NCBI RefSeq assembly: GCF_947495965.1
Contig: NZ_CANMBB010000004.1
Location: forward strand, 186,001-250,000
Reading direction: 5' to 3'
DNA length: 64,000 nt
Source: an uncultured Maribacter sp.
GTDB taxonomy: Bacteria > Bacteroidota > Bacteroidia > Flavobacteriales > Flavobacteriaceae
The translations under genes were made by a program, and so were the position numbers. Below, piece by piece: positions 21,011 through 28,508 of the stretch. Within the stretch, counting starts at the first letter, position 1. Every line of letters begins with the position of its first letter. The notes below the pieces were generated by a model. That model did not search any database, had not been told where the DNA came from, and was given only the letters and a program-made list of their open reading frames with translations.

Positions 21011-21093
21011 AAAAAAAATGCCCCGAATTAGAAGTCGAGGCGGCTTAAATGTTTTCACAACGGAATAATCCTTATTGTGAATTGCTTTCAGTG
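21011..21093 (-). ncRNA. tracrRNA of the type II-C CRISPR-Cas system
   Basis: On the minus strand, 18 nt (plus positions 21075-21092) are perfectly complementary to the 5' part of the CRISPR repeat, GTTGTGAATTGCTTTCAGT. They are followed by AATAAGGATTATTCCGTTGTG, which closely resembles the nexus of known tracrRNAs (AAUAAGGCUAGUCCGUU in S. pyogenes). Next comes a linker and a terminator hairpin with arms GCCTCGA and TTCGGGGC (one G-U pair) and an eight-T run at 21011-21018. A TATATTTA box at 21097-21104 on the minus strand is at the right distance for a start near 21092, giving an RNA of about 83 nt. It would pair with crRNAs and load into Cas9. It is transcribed opposite to cas9. Confidence 0.88.
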
Positions 21094-21185
21094 TTGTAAA
21101 TATATGAAAAGAAAATAATATATAGAATACAGATTTCCGTAAATGTAAAAGAAAACTACTAGTTATATTTAGAGCAAGGTATAAC

Positions 21186-21260
21186 TTAAAAAAAGAGAGC
21201 CTATAAAAGGCTCTCACTGAAAACAATTCACAACTAGTCATATACATTAATATATAACTA
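21186..21260 (-). ncRNA. scaRNA-like crRNA mimic with seed matching the cas9 promoter (candidate)
   Basis: On the minus strand 19 nt, GTTGTGAATTGTTTTCAGT (plus 21216-21234), copy the 5' half of the CRISPR repeat with one C-to-T change that still allows G-U pairing to the tracrRNA. An intrinsic terminator (stem GAGAGCC/GGCTCTC at 21195-21215, then seven T at 21188-21194) follows without a gap. Immediately 5' of the repeat copy, where a crRNA spacer would be, the last 12 nt TGTATATGACTA are identical to plus-strand 21433-21444 in the cas9 promoter; the 12 nt before that match poorly. A minus-strand TATCTTTG box at 21408-21415 could start a ~215-nt RNA. This is sequence inference; expression is not shown. 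Confidence 0.68.
21195..21215 (-). terminator. Terminator fused to the solitary repeat copy
   Basis: Stem GAGAGCC/GGCTCTC with a 7-nt loop, followed on the minus strand by TTTTTTT (plus 21188-21194). It begins at the base next to the repeat copy at 21216, so a minus-strand transcript would end with guide, repeat half and terminator. Confidence 0.8.
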
Positions 21261-21275
21261 GAATGGTTAAGGTAA

Positions 21276-21320
21276 TCAAACTATGTTTGACTTAGAGTAA
21301 AATTTGGACAATTACTCTAA
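21276..21320. repeat. Two inverted repeats between the scaRNA-like element and cas9
   Basis: TCAAACTATGTTTGA (21276-21290) has 6-base arms, and TTAGAGTAA (21292-21300) pairs with TTACTCTAA (21312-21320), a perfect 9-base stem with an 11-base loop. In the minus-strand transcript proposed here they would form two hairpins 5' of the guide segment. Their function is unknown. Confidence 0.6.
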
Positions 21321-21380
21321 ACAATAAAATTAAAATAACAAATATGAGGTTGGAATTCATACTTCAATATTATTTTTATT

Positions 21381-21395
21381 TAGGTTGTCAACCTA
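21381..21395. promoter_or_regulatory. 15-bp palindrome upstream of cas9, possible operator
   Basis: TAGGTTGTCAACCTA is palindromic with 7-base arms around one central base. It lies 31 bp upstream of the cas9 -7 box and 12 bp downstream (in minus sense) of the minus-strand -7 box, so it is placed to influence both divergent promoters. It could be a regulator site or an RNA hairpin. Confidence 0.45.
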
Positions 21396-21407
21396 AAATT
21401 GCTAGAG

Positions 21408-21415
21408 CAAAGATA
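21408..21415 (-). promoter_or_regulatory. Minus-strand -7 box for the scaRNA-like transcript (putative)
   Basis: TATCTTTG on the minus strand matches the Bacteroidetes TAnnTTTG consensus exactly. The start would be near 21403, reading away from cas9 toward the repeat copy and terminator. No good -33 element is evident. Confidence 0.5.
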
Positions 21416-21426
21416 ATAATATTTTT

Positions 21427-21434
21427 TATATTTG
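21427..21434 (+). promoter_or_regulatory. cas9 promoter -7 box
   Basis: TATATTTG matches TAnnTTTG and would start transcription about 20 nt before the cas9 ATG at 21461. The 12-nt segment 21433-21444 that is repeated in the scaRNA-like element begins inside this box, so Cas9 bound there would cover the promoter and start site. Confidence 0.6.
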
Positions 21435-21460
21435 TATATGACTATAATACATTTTTTTAA

Positions 21461-24400
21461 ATGAAGAGAATTTTAGGATTGGATTTAGGAACCAATAGTA
21501 TTGGTTGGGCGTTGGTAAGCGAAGCTGAAAGTAAAGATGAGAAATCAGAGATTATCAAATTAGGGGTTAGGGTAAACCCTTTGACTACTGATGAACAAAC
21601 CGATTTTGAGAAAGGAAGACCACTATCTGTTAATGCGGATAGAACATTAAAACGTGGAGCAAGAAGAAATTTACAGCGTTTTAAACTTAGAAGGCAGTAT
21701 TTAATAGAGATATTAGAAAAACACAAAATAATTTCTAATAAAACACCTTTAACTGAAAATGGTAAAGGAACTACTCATGAAACATTAAGGTTAAGAGCTA
21801 CTGCTGCTGTTGAGAAAATTGAATTGGAAAATCTGGCAAAAGTTTTGCTGGCAATTAATAAAAAGAGAGGTTATAAAAGTAGTAGAAAGGCGGTAAACGA
21901 AGATGAGGGTGTAGCAATTGATGGAATGTCAGTTGCCAAAGAATTATATGAGAAGAATCTAACTCCTGGTCAATATGTTTACCAATTACTAAAACAGGAT
22001 AAAAAGTACATCCCAGAGTTTTATCGTTCCGACTTACAAAGTGAATGGGATAAAGTTTGGAACACCCAAAAAACATTTTATTCAGAAATTTTAACGGATG
22101 AATTGTACAAAGAGCTACAAGGTAAAAACAAAGGTGCTACATGGACTATTTGTCAAAAACCTTTCAATATTGTTGGTAAGAAGCTAGATGGGAAAGCTCA
22201 GGAGCAAAAACTAAAAAAGTATCAGCTACGAGCAAAAGCTTTGTCAGAGCAGTTAGGCTTAGAACATTTAGCTATTGTTTTACAGGAAATAAATAATGAT
22301 GCCAATAAATCGAGTGGTTATTTGGGCGCTATAAGCGATAGAAGTAAAGAGCTTTATTTTGATAAAATTACAGTTGGTCAATATTTAAATAAGCAAATAA
22401 AAGAAAATCCGCATACATCACTTAAAAATCAAGTGTTTTACAGACAAGATTATCTAGATGAGTTTGAGCAAATTTGGGAAACTCAAGCTAAACATCATTC
22501 GGTTTTAACTAAAGAGTTAAAAGAAGAAGTAAGAGATGTTATTATATTTTATCAAAGAAGATTAAAATCACAAAAACATTTAATTTCTAATTGCCAATTT
22601 GAAAAATATCATAAGGCGATTCCTAAATCATCACCTTTGTTTCAAGAGTTTAAAATTTGGGAAAATCTGAACAATGTAAAGTTTAAGGCTACTGATGAAA
22701 AGTTTAATAGTTCAAATAATAAAAGTGGAGAAGCAAATCACATTTTAGATGATGAAACTAAAATACTATTATTTGAAGAATTGAATCTAAGAGGAGATTT
22801 AAAAGCCAATGAAGTCCTTAAATTTTTAGGGAAGAAAACAAAAGATTGGAACTGTAATTTTGAAAAAATTGAAGGGAATAGAACTAACCAAGCGCTATAT
22901 GCTATTTATAAAGAAATAGCAGAAATGGAGGGTTATGCTTTTGATTGGTCCAAAAAGACAGCGGCGGAAATAAAAGAGGAATTAAGAGCTGTTTTTCCAG
23001 AAATAGGAATTAAACCCGAAGTTTTAGATTTTGATGCTAATAAAAATGGTGCTGCATTTGATAAACAGTATGGTTATGAATTATGGCATTTGTTATATTC
23101 GGCTGAAGATGACCATAAAATAGCGGAAGAGGATAAGTTAGTCTACGGTAATTCTAATGTTGCCTTAAAAAAGAAATTACATGCTAAGTATGGTTTTAAA
23201 CCTGAATATACAGCATGGTTAGTAAACATAAAACTACAACAAGACTATGGTAGCTTATCGGCAAGAGCTATTCGTAAAATTTTACCTTTTCTACAAGGCA
23301 GCAATGAGTTTTCAAAAGCTTGTTCCATGGCGGGTTACAATCATTCATGGAGTTTAACTCGAGAAGAATTAAACAATAGAGTGCTAAAAGATAAACTTGA
23401 ATTACTTCCTAAAAACAGTTTGCGAAATCCAGTAGTGGAAAAAATATTGAACCAAGTGGTAAATTTGGTAAATCAAGTTATTCAAACTTACGGAAAACCA
23501 GATGAAGTTAGAATAGAATTAGCTAGAGAGCTTAAGAAATCGGCATCAGAACGTAAAGATGCAACCTCTTTTATTACAAAACGTACCAAGGAAAATGAGG
23601 ATATTAGAAAATTAATCTCTAAGGAGTTTGGTATTCCTAATCCAACAAAAAATGATGTTGTTAGATATCGCTTGTATGAAGAATTAAAAGATTTAGGCTA
23701 TAAAACTGTTTTTACTAACAAGTATATTTCTAAAGAGAAACTCTTTTCCAAAGAAATAGATATTGAACACATTATTCCAAAAGCTATGTTGTTTGATGAT
23801 TCTTTTTCTAATAAAACCTTAGCTTACAGAAAAATAAACCTTCAAAAAAGAGAAAGAACAGCAGTAGATTTTATTGAAAACGATTTTAACGATGATTTAG
23901 AAAATTACAAAAATAGAGTTGAGGCACTTTACAACAAAGGTAACGGCATTAGCAAAGGCAAGTATAAAAAACTGCTAATGAGCCAGCAAGATTTACCCGA
24001 TGGTTTTATTGAGCGCGATTTAAGAAACTCGCAATATATAGCTAAAAAAGCAAAAGCTATGCTGTTTGAAGTGTTTAAAAACGTAGTTTCTACAACTGGA
24101 AGTATTACCGATAAGTTGAGGGAAGATTGGGATTTAATTAACGTCATGAAAGAGTTAAACCTTCCAAAATATAAAGCGTTAGGCTTAACAGAAATACAAA
24201 CAAGAAAAGGTAATAAAAAAGTTGAAGTAATAAAGGATTGGACCAAACGTAACGATCACCGCCATCATGCAATGGATGCATTAACGGTTGCATTTACAAC
24301 ACATAATCATATACAATACCTTAATAACTTAAATGCCAGAAAAGATGTTAAACATAAAAAACATTCAAATATTATTGCCATAGAAAAAGTAATAACCCAT

Positions 24401-25582
24401 AAAAATAGTGAGGGTAAGAAAAAGTTTATTGCTCCAATGTCTAATTTTCGTATTCAGGCAAAAAAGGATATTGAATCTATTATAGTTTCTTTTAAGACAA
24501 AGAATAAAGTAGTAACTAAAAATATCAATAAAACTAAATTAAAAGGGAAAGAGAGCTTCAAATCTAAGATACAGCTTACACCAAGAGGTCAATTGCATAA
24601 AGAAACGGTTTATGGTAAATCTAAACAACCAATGGATAAAACCGTAAAAGTTAATAAGCGAATTACCTTAGAACAGATAAATAATATTATACATCCTCGA
24701 ATAAAGGATTATTTATTAGACCATTTAGCAAAATATAATAATGATACTTTAAAAGCTTTTGATACAAAAACACTTAAGAAAGAGCCGTTGATTTTTAACA
24801 ACAAACTTATAAAAGAAGTGTTCTGTTATGAAGATATTTATACCATTAGAAAAGCTGTTAATGCAGATAATTTTAAAAACGAAAAAAGTTTAGATAAAAT
24901 TATAGATAGTAATATAAAGACACTTCTTAAAACACGTTTAAAAGCTAATAATGGAAATGCTAAAGAAGCATTTTCAGATTTAGATAATAACCCCATTTGG
25001 TTAAATAAAGAAAAAGGTATTGCGGTAAAACGAGTTGCCATTTCTGGTGTAAATAATGTAGAAGCACTTCATGAAAAAAGAGACCATAATGGTAATTTAA
25101 TTCTAGATAAAAATGGAAAACCAGTACAAAATGACTTTGTGAGTACAGGAAACAACCATCATGTTGCTATTTATAGAGATAATAAAGGGAAACTACAAGA
25201 TAAAGTAGTATCATTTTATGAAGCAGTTCAACGTGTTAATTCTGGACTTTCAATAATTGATAAAGATTATAACAAACACCTTGCTTGGCAATTTTTGTTT
25301 ACAATGAAACAAAATGAATTGTTTGTTTTTCCTTCTGAAGACTTTAATCCAAGTGAAATTAATTTAATGGATCAAAAGAACTCAAAGATGATAAGTGAGC
25401 ATATATTTAGGGTTCAAAAAATAGCAATTAAAAATTATGTATTTCGCCATCATTTAGAAACTACTGTTACAAATGATTTAGAGTTTACATATCGAAGTGT
25501 ACGTTCTACAGGAGGTCTTGAGGGTTTAGTAAAAGTCAGAACTAATCATTTAGGGAGTATTGTGCAAGTAGGTGAATATTAA
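21461..25582 (+). CDS. cas9: CRISPR-associated endonuclease Cas9, type II-C
   Basis: A 1373-residue Cas9 with an intact active site. RuvC-I is RILGLDLGTNSIGWALV (Asp8), followed by the arginine-rich bridge helix RGARRNLQRFKLRRQYL (about residues 66-83). RuvC-II is VRIELARELK (Glu686). The HNH segment is IDIEHIIPKAMLFDD (Asp767, His770, with Asn784/Asn793 downstream). RuvC-III is DHRHHAMDALTVAF (His936, Asp939). It would cut both DNA strands under guidance of crRNA:tracrRNA. The long form is typical of Bacteroidetes II-C enzymes. The operon order cas9-cas1-cas2 without csn2 or cas4 gives the subtype. The start ATG follows its promoter by about 20 nt. The PAM cannot be read from the sequence. 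Confidence 0.97.
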   Translation: MKRILGLDLGTNSIGWALVSEAESKDEKSEIIKLGVRVNPLTTDEQTDFEKGRPLSVNADRTLKRGARRNLQRFKLRRQYLIEILEKHKIISNKTPLTENGKGTTHETLRLRATAAVEKIELENLAKVLLAINKKRGYKSSRKAVNEDEGVAIDGMSVAKELYEKNLTPGQYVYQLLKQDKKYIPEFYRSDLQSEWDKVWNTQKTFYSEILTDELYKELQGKNKGATWTICQKPFNIVGKKLDGKAQEQKLKKYQLRAKALSEQLGLEHLAIVLQEINNDANKSSGYLGAISDRSKELYFDKITVGQYLNKQIKENPHTSLKNQVFYRQDYLDEFEQIWETQAKHHSVLTKELKEEVRDVIIFYQRRLKSQKHLISNCQFEKYHKAIPKSSPLFQEFKIWENLNNVKFKATDEKFNSSNNKSGEANHILDDETKILLFEELNLRGDLKANEVLKFLGKKTKDWNCNFEKIEGNRTNQALYAIYKEIAEMEGYAFDWSKKTAAEIKEELRAVFPEIGIKPEVLDFDANKNGAAFDKQYGYELWHLLYSAEDDHKIAEEDKLVYGNSNVALKKKLHAKYGFKPEYTAWLVNIKLQQDYGSLSARAIRKILPFLQGSNEFSKACSMAGYNHSWSLTREELNNRVLKDKLELLPKNSLRNPVVEKILNQVVNLVNQVIQTYGKPDEVRIELARELKKSASERKDATSFITKRTKENEDIRKLISKEFGIPNPTKNDVVRYRLYEELKDLGYKTVFTNKYISKEKLFSKEIDIEHIIPKAMLFDDSFSNKTLAYRKINLQKRERTAVDFIENDFNDDLENYKNRVEALYNKGNGISKGKYKKLLMSQQDLPDGFIERDLRNSQYIAKKAKAMLFEVFKNVVSTTGSITDKLREDWDLINVMKELNLPKYKALGLTEIQTRKGNKKVEVIKDWTKRNDHRHHAMDALTVAFTTHNHIQYLNNLNARKDVKHKKHSNIIAIEKVITHKNSEGKKKFIAPMSNFRIQAKKDIESIIVSFKTKNKVVTKNINKTKLKGKESFKSKIQLTPRGQLHKETVYGKSKQPMDKTVKVNKRITLEQINNIIHPRIKDYLLDHLAKYNNDTLKAFDTKTLKKEPLIFNNKLIKEVFCYEDIYTIRKAVNADNFKNEKSLDKIIDSNIKTLLKTRLKANNGNAKEAFSDLDNNPIWLNKEKGIAVKRVAISGVNNVEALHEKRDHNGNLILDKNGKPVQNDFVSTGNNHHVAIYRDNKGKLQDKVVSFYEAVQRVNSGLSIIDKDYNKHLAWQFLFTMKQNELFVFPSEDFNPSEINLMDQKNSKMISEHIFRVQKIAIKNYVFRHHLETTVTNDLEFTYRSVRSTGGLEGLVKVRTNHLGSIVQVGEY

Positions 25583-25592
25583 TTTTTGATTT

Positions 25593-26495
25593 ATGATCAA
25601 ACGCACCCTCTTTTTTGGTAACCCAGTATACTTAAGCACCCGAAATGAGCAATTGGTAGCAACATACCCAGAAGAGGGTAAAGAAGAAAGAACGGCAGCC
25701 ATAGAAGATTTAGGATTTGTAGTTTTAGAAAACTCACAAATAACCATTACTACTGGTTTATTAATGAAATTAGTACAAAATAAAACCGCCGTTTTAACCT
25801 GCGATAAGCAACATTTACCCTGTGGTTTTTTGCAACCCTTGGTAGGGCATACAGAACAGACGGAGCGTATGCGTCACCAATTAAATGCCAGCGTACCTTT
25901 AAAAAAGCAATTATGGCAACAAACCGTACAGGCAAAAATTGAGAACCAAGCACAGCATTTATTAGTACAATCTAAAAACGCCTTAAAGTTAAAACGCTGG
26001 GCAAAAGAAGTAAAAAGCGGTGATGCTCAAAACCATGAAGCTTATGCTGCGGCGTACTATTTTCAGGAGTTATTTACAGGTATAGAAGGCTTTAGTCGTA
26101 ACCAAAAAGGAGTAGCGCCAAACAATCTTTTAAATTATGGCTATGCCATATTACGAGCCGTAACGGCAAGGGCTTTGGTAAGTAGCGGTATGTTACCCAG
26201 TGTAGGTATATTCCATAGAAATAAATACAATGCATTTTGTTTGGCAGATGATATTATGGAGCCGTATAGACCTTTTGTAGATATGCTGGTCTATGATTTA
26301 GTAGCTACGGGTTGCCAAATAGAAGAGCTTAATATCCAACTAAAAAATGAATTATTGCACATACCCGCAATGGATGTGGTAATAGATGGTAAAAAAAGTC
26401 CATTAATGAATGCCATGAGCCGTACCACCAATAGTTTGTACGAGTGTTTTTATGGCAGTAGCCGAAGAATATTATATCCAGCATTAAAGTTGTAA
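25593..26495 (+). CDS. cas1: CRISPR-associated integrase Cas1, type II
   Basis: A 300-residue Cas1 beginning IKRTLFFGNPVYLSTRNEQL, as in type II-C systems. The beta-rich N-terminal domain (about residues 1-75) is followed by the helical catalytic domain. Family metal ligands are expected at the Glu of HEAYAAAYYF (about 150), the His of VGIFHRNKYN (about 207) and the acidic residues of CLADDIMEPYRPFVD (about 219). It integrates spacers as a complex with Cas2. It starts 10 bases after the cas9 stop, so it is in the cas9 operon. Its natural partner cas2 lies 589 bases downstream, separated by a GIY-YIG gene and repeats. Confidence 0.96.
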   Translation: MIKRTLFFGNPVYLSTRNEQLVATYPEEGKEERTAAIEDLGFVVLENSQITITTGLLMKLVQNKTAVLTCDKQHLPCGFLQPLVGHTEQTERMRHQLNASVPLKKQLWQQTVQAKIENQAQHLLVQSKNALKLKRWAKEVKSGDAQNHEAYAAAYYFQELFTGIEGFSRNQKGVAPNNLLNYGYAILRAVTARALVSSGMLPSVGIFHRNKYNAFCLADDIMEPYRPFVDMLVYDLVATGCQIEELNIQLKNELLHIPAMDVVIDGKKSPLMNAMSRTTNSLYECFYGSSRRILYPALKL

Positions 26496-26644: not shown

Positions 26645-26959
26645 ATGAAAACCTATTTCGTATACATATTAAAATGTAATGACGGTCTTTTATATACAGG
26701 CCTTACTAATAATCTAAGCAGAAGATTAGAAGAACATCAGCTAGGTAAAAATAAAAGCAGTTATACCTATAAGAGAAGACCAGTGCATTTAATATGGCAC
26801 CAAATATTTAATGACATTGCACAAGCTATTTTAGTAGAGAAACAAATTAAAAAATGGAGTAGTAAAAAGAAATGGGCTTTAGCCAATGGCGATGAAAAAA
26901 TGCTAAAAATTTTAGCAGAATGTAGGAATGCTAGTCATTATACCTATAAGCCAGACTGA
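26645..26959 (+). CDS. GIY-YIG endonuclease, short standalone form (COG2827/UPF0213-like)
   Basis: A 104-residue protein made almost only of a GIY-YIG domain. YFVYILKCNDGLLYTGLT carries the two Tyr motifs, LSRRLEEH the catalytic Arg (about residue 27), and AILVEKQIKKW the metal-binding Glu (about residue 67). Such proteins are predicted DNA nickases or endonucleases; their cellular role is unknown. The gene splits cas1 from cas2, where CRISPR systems normally carry none, and is bracketed by REP-like repeats in opposite orientations. That suggests the repeats and nuclease move or are maintained together, in analogy to RAYT transposases with REP elements; this is inference. The C-terminal 20 residues are less conserved-looking. 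Confidence 0.88.
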   Translation: MKTYFVYILKCNDGLLYTGLTNNLSRRLEEHQLGKNKSSYTYKRRPVHLIWHQIFNDIAQAILVEKQIKKWSSKKKWALANGDEKMLKILAECRNASHYTYKPD

Positions 26960-26960
26960 G

Positions 26961-27065
26961 GTCTCGACTGCGCTCGACCTGACAAGACTGCGCTCGATTT
27001 GACACGATTGCGTACGACCTGTGAAGGCTGCAATAAATCTAAAAAGACTGCACTAGACTTGACAC
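26961..27065. repeat. REP-like tandem repeat, five decaying 20-bp units (inverted orientation)
   Basis: Units begin at 26966, 26986, 27006, 27026 and 27046 with a strict 20-bp period: GACTGCGCTCGACCTGACAA, then increasingly diverged versions. They are the reverse complement of the core found upstream of the GIY-YIG gene and end just before cas2. The gradient of decay away from the nuclease gene implies an old array eroding by point mutation. Confidence 0.82.
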
Positions 27066-27084: not shown

Positions 27085-27435
<351 letters not shown>

Positions 27436-27460
27436 TACAAAAGTTGCGTTTAAAAATGTT

Positions 27461-27503
27461 AGGTCGAGCGCAGTCTTGTCAGGTCGAGCGCAGTCGAGAC
27501 CTC
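27461..27503. repeat. REP-like repeat, two 20-bp units between cas2 and the array
   Basis: AGGTCGAGCGCAGTCTTGTC is followed by AGGTCGAGCGCAGTCGAGAC with a 20-bp period, in the same orientation as the cluster after cas1. Together with 26961-27065 it brackets cas2 with inverted copies of the GGTC...GACC subtype. Confidence 0.82.
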
Positions 27504-27572: not shown

Positions 27573-28363
27573 ACTGTGAATTATCCTATAAAGATAAGAA
27601 CTGAAAGCAATTCACAACTAGGAGAGCCTTCACAAAAAGCCATAGGTACTGTGAATTATCCTATAAAGATAAGAACTGAAAGCAATTCACAACTCTGTAG
27701 TGTATATCGGTTTATATTTTTCAGACTGTGAATTATCCTATAAAGATAAGAACTGAAAGCAATTCACAACTTGCATAGGTTTTAATAGGTGTTGTCATTC
27801 ACTGTGAATTATCCTATAAAGATAAGAACTGAAAGCAATTCACAACCAAACACTTCTTTAACTCCTCACTTATATGACTGTGAATTATCCTATAAAGATA
27901 AGAACTGAAAGCAATTCACAACTAGACAAATATGACCTTTTGGAACTTGGTTACTGTGAATTATCCTATAAAGATAAGAACTGAAAGCAATTCACAACCA
28001 GAAGAACCTACATATATACAAGTTACAACTGTGAATTATCCTATAAAGATAAGAACTGAAAGCAATTCACAACAACGGTACAGCTTTAAAAGATGAAACG
28101 GCAACTGTGAATTATCCTATAAAGATAAGAACTGAAAGCAATTCACAACGTATAATGAGGTGTACCAGGATGAACTAAAACTGTGAATTATCCTATAAAG
28201 ATAAGAACTGAAAGCAATTCACAACCGGAATGGTCTCTATGTTGGTAGGTAACTAACTGTGAATTATCCTATAAAGATAAGAACTGAAAGCAATTCACAA
28301 CTCTCCTGGGTGGGAAAGAATTTAAGATCGGACTGTGAATTATCCTATAAAGATAAGAACTGA
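27573..28363 (-). CRISPR. CRISPR array, 10 full 46-bp repeats plus one half repeat, 10 spacers
   Basis: Full repeats start at 27573, 27648, 27725, 27801, 27877, 27953, 28028, 28104, 28180 and 28256 and appear identical. Spacers are 29-31 bp. An eleventh repeat at 28332 keeps only its first 32 bp. Because the tracrRNA anti-repeat pairs with GTTGTGAATTGCTTTCAGT, crRNAs must be transcribed from the minus strand, toward cas2. Read that way each repeat has inverted ends (GTTGTGAATT / AATTCACAGT) and carries TTG, 18 bases, then TATCTTTA, a near-match to a Bacteroidetes promoter, so each spacer may have its own start as in other II-C arrays. The half repeat at the upstream end retains that promoter half. 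Confidence 0.97.
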
Positions 28364-28508
28364 CCGAGCGTAGCGACCGATGAATACCTATAAAAAAATA
28401 AAAAATACATGAATAAAGCAATTTTAAACAGCAATCACCTAAAAAGTAAAAGCCCACTTTTTAAAAAGCAGGCTTTTATAGGTAATCTAAAAAGTATAAC
28501 ATCTTTAA
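28364..28508. other. Region right of the array, no gene
   Basis: The truncated repeat joins a short GC-rich segment, CCGAGCGTAGCGACCG, unlike the AT-rich surroundings, then AT-rich sequence with no open frame worth reporting and the terminator at 28448-28477. No extended leader is recognisable. Confidence 0.5.
28448..28477 (-). terminator. Terminator between the CRISPR array and the DoxX-like gene
   Basis: Arms AAAAGCC and GGCTTTT with additional A/T pairing inside form a hairpin lying 31 bases after the stop of the minus-strand DoxX-like gene. Confidence 0.65.

Follow-up and report, generated by a model that had tools for sequence, protein, structure and literature searches.

The window, as we call the whole stretch of 64,000 nucleotides of uncultured Maribacter DNA that was analysed, contains a CRISPR–Cas locus in which cas9 (21461–25582, plus strand; 1,373 amino acids; TIGR01865, 477 bits) is followed by a type II cas1 (25593–26495, plus strand; TIGR03639), a GIY-YIG open reading frame (26645–26959) and a type II cas2-like open reading frame of 85 amino acids (27085–27342, plus strand; Cas2_II models). 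A CRISPR array of 11 repeat copies, the last of them degenerate, lies at 27574–28391 on the minus strand, as judged from repeat orientation, and on the other side of cas9 the minus strand carries a tracrRNA (21012–21092, ends inferred) made up of an antirepeat (21092–21072), a nexus and a terminator. Cas9, Cas1 and Cas2 fit type II, and no extra cas-like open reading frame was noticed near their genes among those inspected; from this gene content, and from what is known of the subtypes, we take the locus to be II-C and term it II-C-like. Its nearest named Cas9 loci are those of uncultured Maribacter isolates. Rfam at gathering threshold gave no match within the window.

The cas2-like open reading frame stops where the product of a related locus (L006) continues, and is possibly shortened; it is flanked by 47-bp inverted repeats, 94% complementary (26958–27004 and 27457–27503), which belong to a family of short GTCGAGCGCAGTC-type repeats. 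At about 21130–21142, between tracrRNA and cas9, lies an imperfect palindrome of the TTACGGAAATCCGTAA type, a possible operator, which was seen (uncounted) at the same place in many relatives, guide-less loci included.

A half-repeat element between tracrRNA and cas9

Between the tracrRNA and cas9, the minus strand holds half a CRISPR repeat, GTTGTGAATTGTTTTCAGT (21216–21234), identical to the 5′ half of the array repeat (GTTGTGAATTGCTTTCAGT) save for one C-to-T change. It runs directly into a hairpin, GAGAGCC..GGCTCTC (21195–21215), and a T run, which together form a putative intrinsic terminator with an 8-bp stem (21188–21215, minus strand). This arrangement had been described in a sequence-only reading of the same DNA, and we confirm it at the coordinates given there. 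Abutting the half repeat on its 5′ side is a 12-nt stretch, TGTATATGACTA (minus strand, 21246–21235), which that reading took to be a guide seed equal to a site at the cas9 promoter. The match is indeed exact: the 12 nt are identical to plus-strand 21433–21444, a target that overlaps the cas9 −7 box TATATTTG (21427–21434, plus strand), covers the likely start site and has TAATACATT (21445–21453) on its PAM side. Beyond the seed the next 12 guide nucleotides match the target at 6 of 12 positions, as poorly as had been noted. The seed is predicted to be paired within a 5′ hairpin of the guide RNA (21234–21261, minus strand; −12.2 kcal/mol, z −4.4). A weak −7-like box read by eye, ATAGTTTG (21277–21284, minus strand), is a candidate guide promoter; it ends 42 nt before the half repeat and has two mismatches to TAnnTTTG, the −7 consensus.

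The first 17 nt of the half repeat can all pair with the local antirepeat (17/17, −21.2 kcal/mol), and a strong terminator stands between the guide gene and the tracrRNA gene, so that by sequence the two are not one RNA of the tracr-L kind. It had been suggested that readthrough of the terminator might join them into a natural single guide; this finds no support in the window, given its terminator and separate tracrRNA, and a fused form was found in one relative only (L018, below). Because of the complete antirepeat pairing and the intervening terminator, a dual-RNA route is the better reading here.

The seed match is more than chance. Pseudo-guide ends placed at 256 other positions of 21144–21400 matched at best 11 nt (one of 11, two of 10 and four of 9 nt), and since the 11-nt value, one of the 10-nt and one of the 9-nt values represent a single match in shifted register, the best independent value is 10 nt; a match of 12 nt arose in none of 5,000 first-order Markov samples of the region. 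When 1,246 array spacers were each matched to the 300-nt region preceding the cas9 of their own locus, none exceeded 8 nt on the cas9-sense strand and 14 reached it, the best value on the other strand being 9 nt, in five arrays. Searched as the exact full-length seed followed by NR, the 12-mer occurs once in the 3.9-Mb genome, at the cas9 promoter; in the guide's own gene it is followed by GTT and therefore lacks the PAM-side purines.

Candidate guide elements and their matches in related loci

Cas9 loci were gathered from the window's genus, family and order, together with those of five other genera and of 80 named contigs. After removal of known duplicates there were 170; in 7 of them no cas9 start and in 12 no tracrRNA was found, leaving 151 assessable Bacteroidota loci that include three pairs with identical Cas9 (the fragments L026 and L028 were excluded). 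The scan for half repeats allowed up to 3 mismatches in 12; accepted elements have at most 2, stand beside a guide and lie in a long tracrRNA–cas9 interval, the median interval in loci without a half-repeat match being 99 nt. A cas9-side element, on the same strand as the tracrRNA, was found in 11 of the 151 loci: L003 (the window), L006, L008, L015, L018, L029, L030, L070 (Niabella drilacis), L121, L123 and L175. It is absent from the other 140, three of which carry the tRNA-like class described below.

Each of the 11 guide ends has a match of 7–13 nt in the region upstream of its own cas9, always on the cas9-sense strand: 13 nt in L175, 12 in L003, L008 and L018, 11 in L015 and L121, 10 in L070, 8 in L006, L029 and L123 and 7 in L030. 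On the opposite strand, ten guides compared with the region from guide to ATG gave only 3–5 nt. Against the cas9 regions of loci without an element (n=104), 2 of 1,040 comparisons came up to the guide's own value, and when the ten guides were compared mutually it was reached elsewhere only by L003 and L008, which share one seed. Guide and target sequences differ between lineages. The four short matches are weak alone, Markov samples reaching the own value 120 (L006), 319 (L029), 118 (L030) and 161 (L123) times in 5,000, and that of L030 has no further support of the looped-pairing type described below. Whether the bases beside the repeat copy follow the local cas9 promoter in relatives had been set beforehand as a test by the sequence-only reading, and they do so in 11/11 cas9-side elements; its guide interpretation is thus supported by the comparative evidence.

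Several candidates fell outside this set. The half repeats of L110, L140, L142, L151, L152 and L156 had 3 mismatches and promoter matches of only 1–6 nt and were dropped, as was a second half-repeat place in L175 (3 mismatches, 4-nt match). L123 has, besides its guide element, a solo repeat-like copy just upstream of cas9, which was rejected as a guide (2 mismatches, only a T-rich 8-nt match). In L029 the guide also matches 10 nt of the other strand next to the tracrRNA, where the PAM side lacks a purine pair. In L099 and L140 the tracrRNA–cas9 interval is long, and no matching element was found in it.

Presence and absence could be compared between close relatives. The window is identical to L033, whose Cas9 is 93% identical, across 21056–21142 and then diverges: a 318-bp stretch comprising terminator, half repeat, guide and cas9 promoter (21143–21460) stands where L033 has 43 bp before cas9, guide and target promoter being present as one piece. 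The same interval difference separates L006 from L034, whose Cas9 proteins are nearly identical (branch lengths 0.008 and 0.015). Beside the tracrRNA of L029 there is an apparent remnant of a cas9 start, read by eye, which looks like the mark of an insertion. Element-bearing loci are scattered on the Cas9 tree, of which the sister relations alone were read. In L018 the guide with the 12-nt match to the cas9 upstream region and its half repeat run straight into a second copy of the tracrRNA; in the predicted fold of the fused RNA the half repeat and the antirepeat form a single hairpin, with nexus and terminator after it (z −5.4), and by its sequence this II-C-like locus encodes a natural single guide RNA.

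Nine of the 11 cas9 loci have a TAnnTTTG box that either overlaps the target or starts no more than about 26 nt downstream of it (overlapping in L003, L008 and L175; downstream in L006, L029, L030, L070, L121 and L123); none was found at the target in L015 and L018. On the guide side, scanned in all but L175, L015 and L018 each have a perfect box ending 42 nt before the half repeat and L070 one ending 50 nt before it, and L008, L029 and L030 have a box with one mismatch 40–45 nt before it; L006, L121 and L123 have no good box at the expected place.

The 11 half repeats pair with their local antirepeats at −13.5 to −21.2 kcal/mol. In L015 and L029 pairing with the local antirepeat is clearly stronger than with every foreign one, in L018 slightly stronger, and in 9 of the 11 guides own pairing is equal to, slightly above or just below the best foreign value. 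Hairpins that pair the seed are a frequent feature, with a mean z of −2.2 for the 11 guides versus −0.02 for 150 ordinary spacers, stretches of 38 nt being compared with stretches of 32 nt. At least five of ten seed nucleotides are paired in 10 of the 11 guides, the seed of L175 being unpaired, and the guides of L018, L029, L030 and L123 fold no better than shuffles. A stable hairpin holding the seed could hinder loading.

Half-repeat elements beside tRNA-like genes

Five loci, L066 (Flavobacterium sp. xlx-214), L174, L178, L196 and L197, have a tRNA-like gene together with a half-repeat guide upstream of cas9, in the order, on the cas9 strand, of tRNA-like gene, guide, half repeat, terminator and cas9. 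ARAGORN, run on L066, L174 and L178, called each a tRNA, with anticodon GAA in L066 and L174 and TAT in L178. The tRNA-like gene of L174 has no full-length copy other than each genome's cassette copy in the three genomes searched. The guides match the region upstream of the tRNA-like gene in all four loci that have this region in view (that of L196 is cut off by the contig end, hence four of five were scored), over 8–11 nt and about 11–22 nt upstream of the gene's own −7 box. In L174, L178 and L066 the guide matches the opposite arm of its own hairpin as well, over 10 nt and with a PAM side that begins TT; this match was not counted as a target, because scoring was confined to the 250 nt preceding the tRNA-like gene. 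These five loci pair a guide with a tRNA-like gene instead of cas9, so not every half-repeat element serves cas9.

Guides of both classes share one design. In L006, L029 and L123, and in L174 and L178 of the tRNA-like class, 8 paired nucleotides are followed by a 2:1 loop (two guide nucleotides opposite one target nucleotide) and then by exactly 12 paired nucleotides, an arrangement reached in none of 2,000 shuffles for each of the five; it was not seen in the guides of L066 and L197. Such short or interrupted pairing is of the sort that, by known type II biology, binding without cutting would require.

Interpretation and relation to known systems

The DNA itself shows the element, the exact match of its seed, the way this match varies together with the cas9 upstream region of each locus and the capacity to pair with the antirepeat, as well as the shared PAM-side purines and the presence or absence among close relatives. 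From these we infer transcription, loading, binding, lack of cutting and repression, as follows. Transcription of a crRNA-like guide RNA would run leftwards from a promoter some 40 nt upstream of the half repeat and stop at the RNA's own terminator; the half repeat would pair with the ordinary tracrRNA, and the duplex would be loaded by Cas9. The 12-nt seed would then direct Cas9 to the promoter of its own gene, onto the −7 box and the probable start site. With contiguous complementarity ending at 12 nt, Cas9 would bind there without cutting and block transcription, so that cas9 would be under negative feedback. Guide and repressed promoter would together make up one replaceable cassette between tracrRNA and cas9. 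We consider it very probable that the element is such a dedicated guide, in a portable promoter-plus-guide cassette through which Cas9 represses cas9 by binding without cutting.

The 12 nt and their inverted copy in the guide hairpin could instead be sites at which one transcription factor regulates the small RNA as well as cas9, with no guide function, and in several loci the guide DNA is indeed an inverted repeat, which would place half-sites at both places. We think such a shared operator very unlikely. The site always abuts the half repeat and, at cas9, lies on one strand, its sequence varies between lineages, and the looped 8 + 12 pairing of five guides is something an operator does not need. 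Moreover, PAM positions 2 and 3 are both purines in 15/15 targets (11 of cas9 and 4 of tRNA-like genes, three related pairs included) against a background of 0.30. These purines support guide targeting but do not prove it. Searches for phage protospacers gave no usable spacer match from the arrays of the window, L046, L033 and L034, and the PAM of a characterised Flavobacterium Cas9 is given, in the part of the source cited, as NNAAAG (PMC10309648), so that a common NRR PAM is not established. The array of L040 (Riemerella) matches Riemerella phages, apparently through its repeats, with up to 12 pieces on one 135-nt stretch. Two of these phages, CRP34 (L198) and CRP19 (L199), have mini-arrays with II-C-type repeats, which adjoin a gene annotated as DNA-damage-inducible protein D; that the mini-arrays are aimed at the host cas9 promoter was rejected, as the spacers of both phages gave matches of 4–5 nt against the cas9 upstream region of L040.

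It also seems very improbable that the element is the remnant of a decayed array, a leftover repeat and spacer whose promoter match is a relic of self-spacer acquisition or local duplication. Its degenerate half repeat and its patchy distribution on the Cas9 tree would be expected of a remnant, but terminator hairpins are kept among the elements despite wholly different sequences, and L003 and L008 have the identical 12 nt in both guide and target while the flanks have diverged. Paired changes tell against decay as well: L006 and L029 differ by GTGA/GTTA, and L174 and L178 by TATATATTT/TATATGTTT, in guide and target alike.

A guide RNA with another main target, to which the cas9 match would be secondary, has precedent in the Francisella scaRNA, which in the passage cited directs Cas9 to a lipoprotein operon (PMC9458426), and in the sister class with its matches upstream of tRNA-like genes. 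We hold it to be highly unlikely, with the seed followed by NR found in the window genome only at the cas9 promoter (in the search for full-length sites) and with cas9 matched by 11/11 elements of the cas9 class. Antisense action or attenuation by small-RNA base pairing without Cas9, which the overlap of the L003 seed with the likely cas9 start site might suggest, seems extremely unlikely, since the guide reads in the sense of the cas9 mRNA strand and would therefore pair with the template strand and not with the mRNA, and several targets lie upstream of the promoter box.

Dedicated guiding of Cas9 to its own promoter, the reading we prefer, has relatives among known systems. As far as the cited passages go, Cas autorepression is known in II-A (tracr-L) and in I-B, I-E and V-A (CreR), and scaRNA in II-B. 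Two general marks of it are found here: a crRNA-like guide outside the array with a partial match to a cas promoter, and a guide and promoter that vary together (11/11 loci, and the paired change of L006 and L029). The tracr-L of Streptococcus pyogenes is described as a natural single guide whose 11-nt partial match takes Cas9 to the cas promoter without cutting (PMC8616872, PMC11417352), and a 2021 review, in the part consulted, has it absent from other subtypes. The partial-match guide to a cas promoter is common to both; the window locus, however, is II-C-like and from Bacteroidota, with a separate crRNA-like RNA that has its own terminator, and here only L018 has a guide fused to a tracrRNA, and then to a second copy. 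The cited passages describe CreR as a crRNA-like RNA whose complementarity to the cas promoter is limited (PMC13131331, PMC12737573), and the window likewise has a crRNA-like guide with a limited cas-promoter match and a degenerate repeat, one half only, beside the cas genes. A 2025 review treats CreR for type I and V-A in the section cited (PMC12737573); the effector here would be Cas9, and a single half repeat, pairing with tracrRNA, a seed in a hairpin and the looped 8 + 12 class set the present elements apart.

The scaRNA of Francisella novicida (II-B) is reported, in the same partial account as above, to combine a degenerate repeat with a 15-bp match through which Cas9 represses transcription (PMC9458426); the degenerate repeat of the window can similarly pair with tracrRNA, whereas its target is cas9 in place of a lipoprotein operon. 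A meningococcal scaRNA is, as here, a small RNA of a II-C locus; the parts cited of the 2026 paper, which concern efeUOB mRNA, have it act on translation of the efeO mRNA and describe no cas9-promoter guide, and a section title gives scaRNA and Cas9 opposite expression patterns (PMC13431127). Among the literature matches listed, a scope outside which subscription papers and preprints fall, none describes a II-C cas9-promoter guide. In CreTA, an RNA toxin–antitoxin of type I systems, the guide matches the promoter region of the RNA gene according to the passages cited (PMC9458426, PMC12737573). The tRNA-like cassette resembles it in having an upstream region, an RNA gene and a half-repeat guide that matches the upstream region of the first gene; it differs in its RNA gene, which is tRNA-like, and in its effector, which would be Cas9, the CreTA literature cited being on type I. 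The cassette is thus a possible CreTA-like module of a Cas9 system, its toxicity being a guess.

A wider picture can be offered tentatively, as one we find possible if rather doubtful. Bacteroidota II-C loci would carry portable half-repeat cassettes between tracrRNA and cas9, each with a guide and the promoter it represses and with two kinds of client, cas9 (autorepression) and a tRNA-like gene (a Cas9-dependent, CreTA-like addiction). Binding without cutting would be achieved either by a seed of 10–13 nt or by an 8-nt seed, a 2:1 loop and 12 distal pairs, and the seed would often be held in a hairpin that ordinary crRNAs lack, so that the guide may load only onto Cas9 left free by crRNAs.

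If the autorepression reading is true, RNA-guided Cas autorepression extends to the type II-C Cas9 of Bacteroidota. The loci would offer natural examples of guides that seem to have evolved to bind and not to cut, the looped 8 + 12 design among them, with both dual-RNA and single-guide solutions represented. Because Maribacter Cas9 loci that are nearly identical occur both with and without the cassette, the effects of autorepression on immunity and self-damage are testable, and the tRNA-like sister cassette, if toxic, would be a CreTA-like guard of the Cas9 system.
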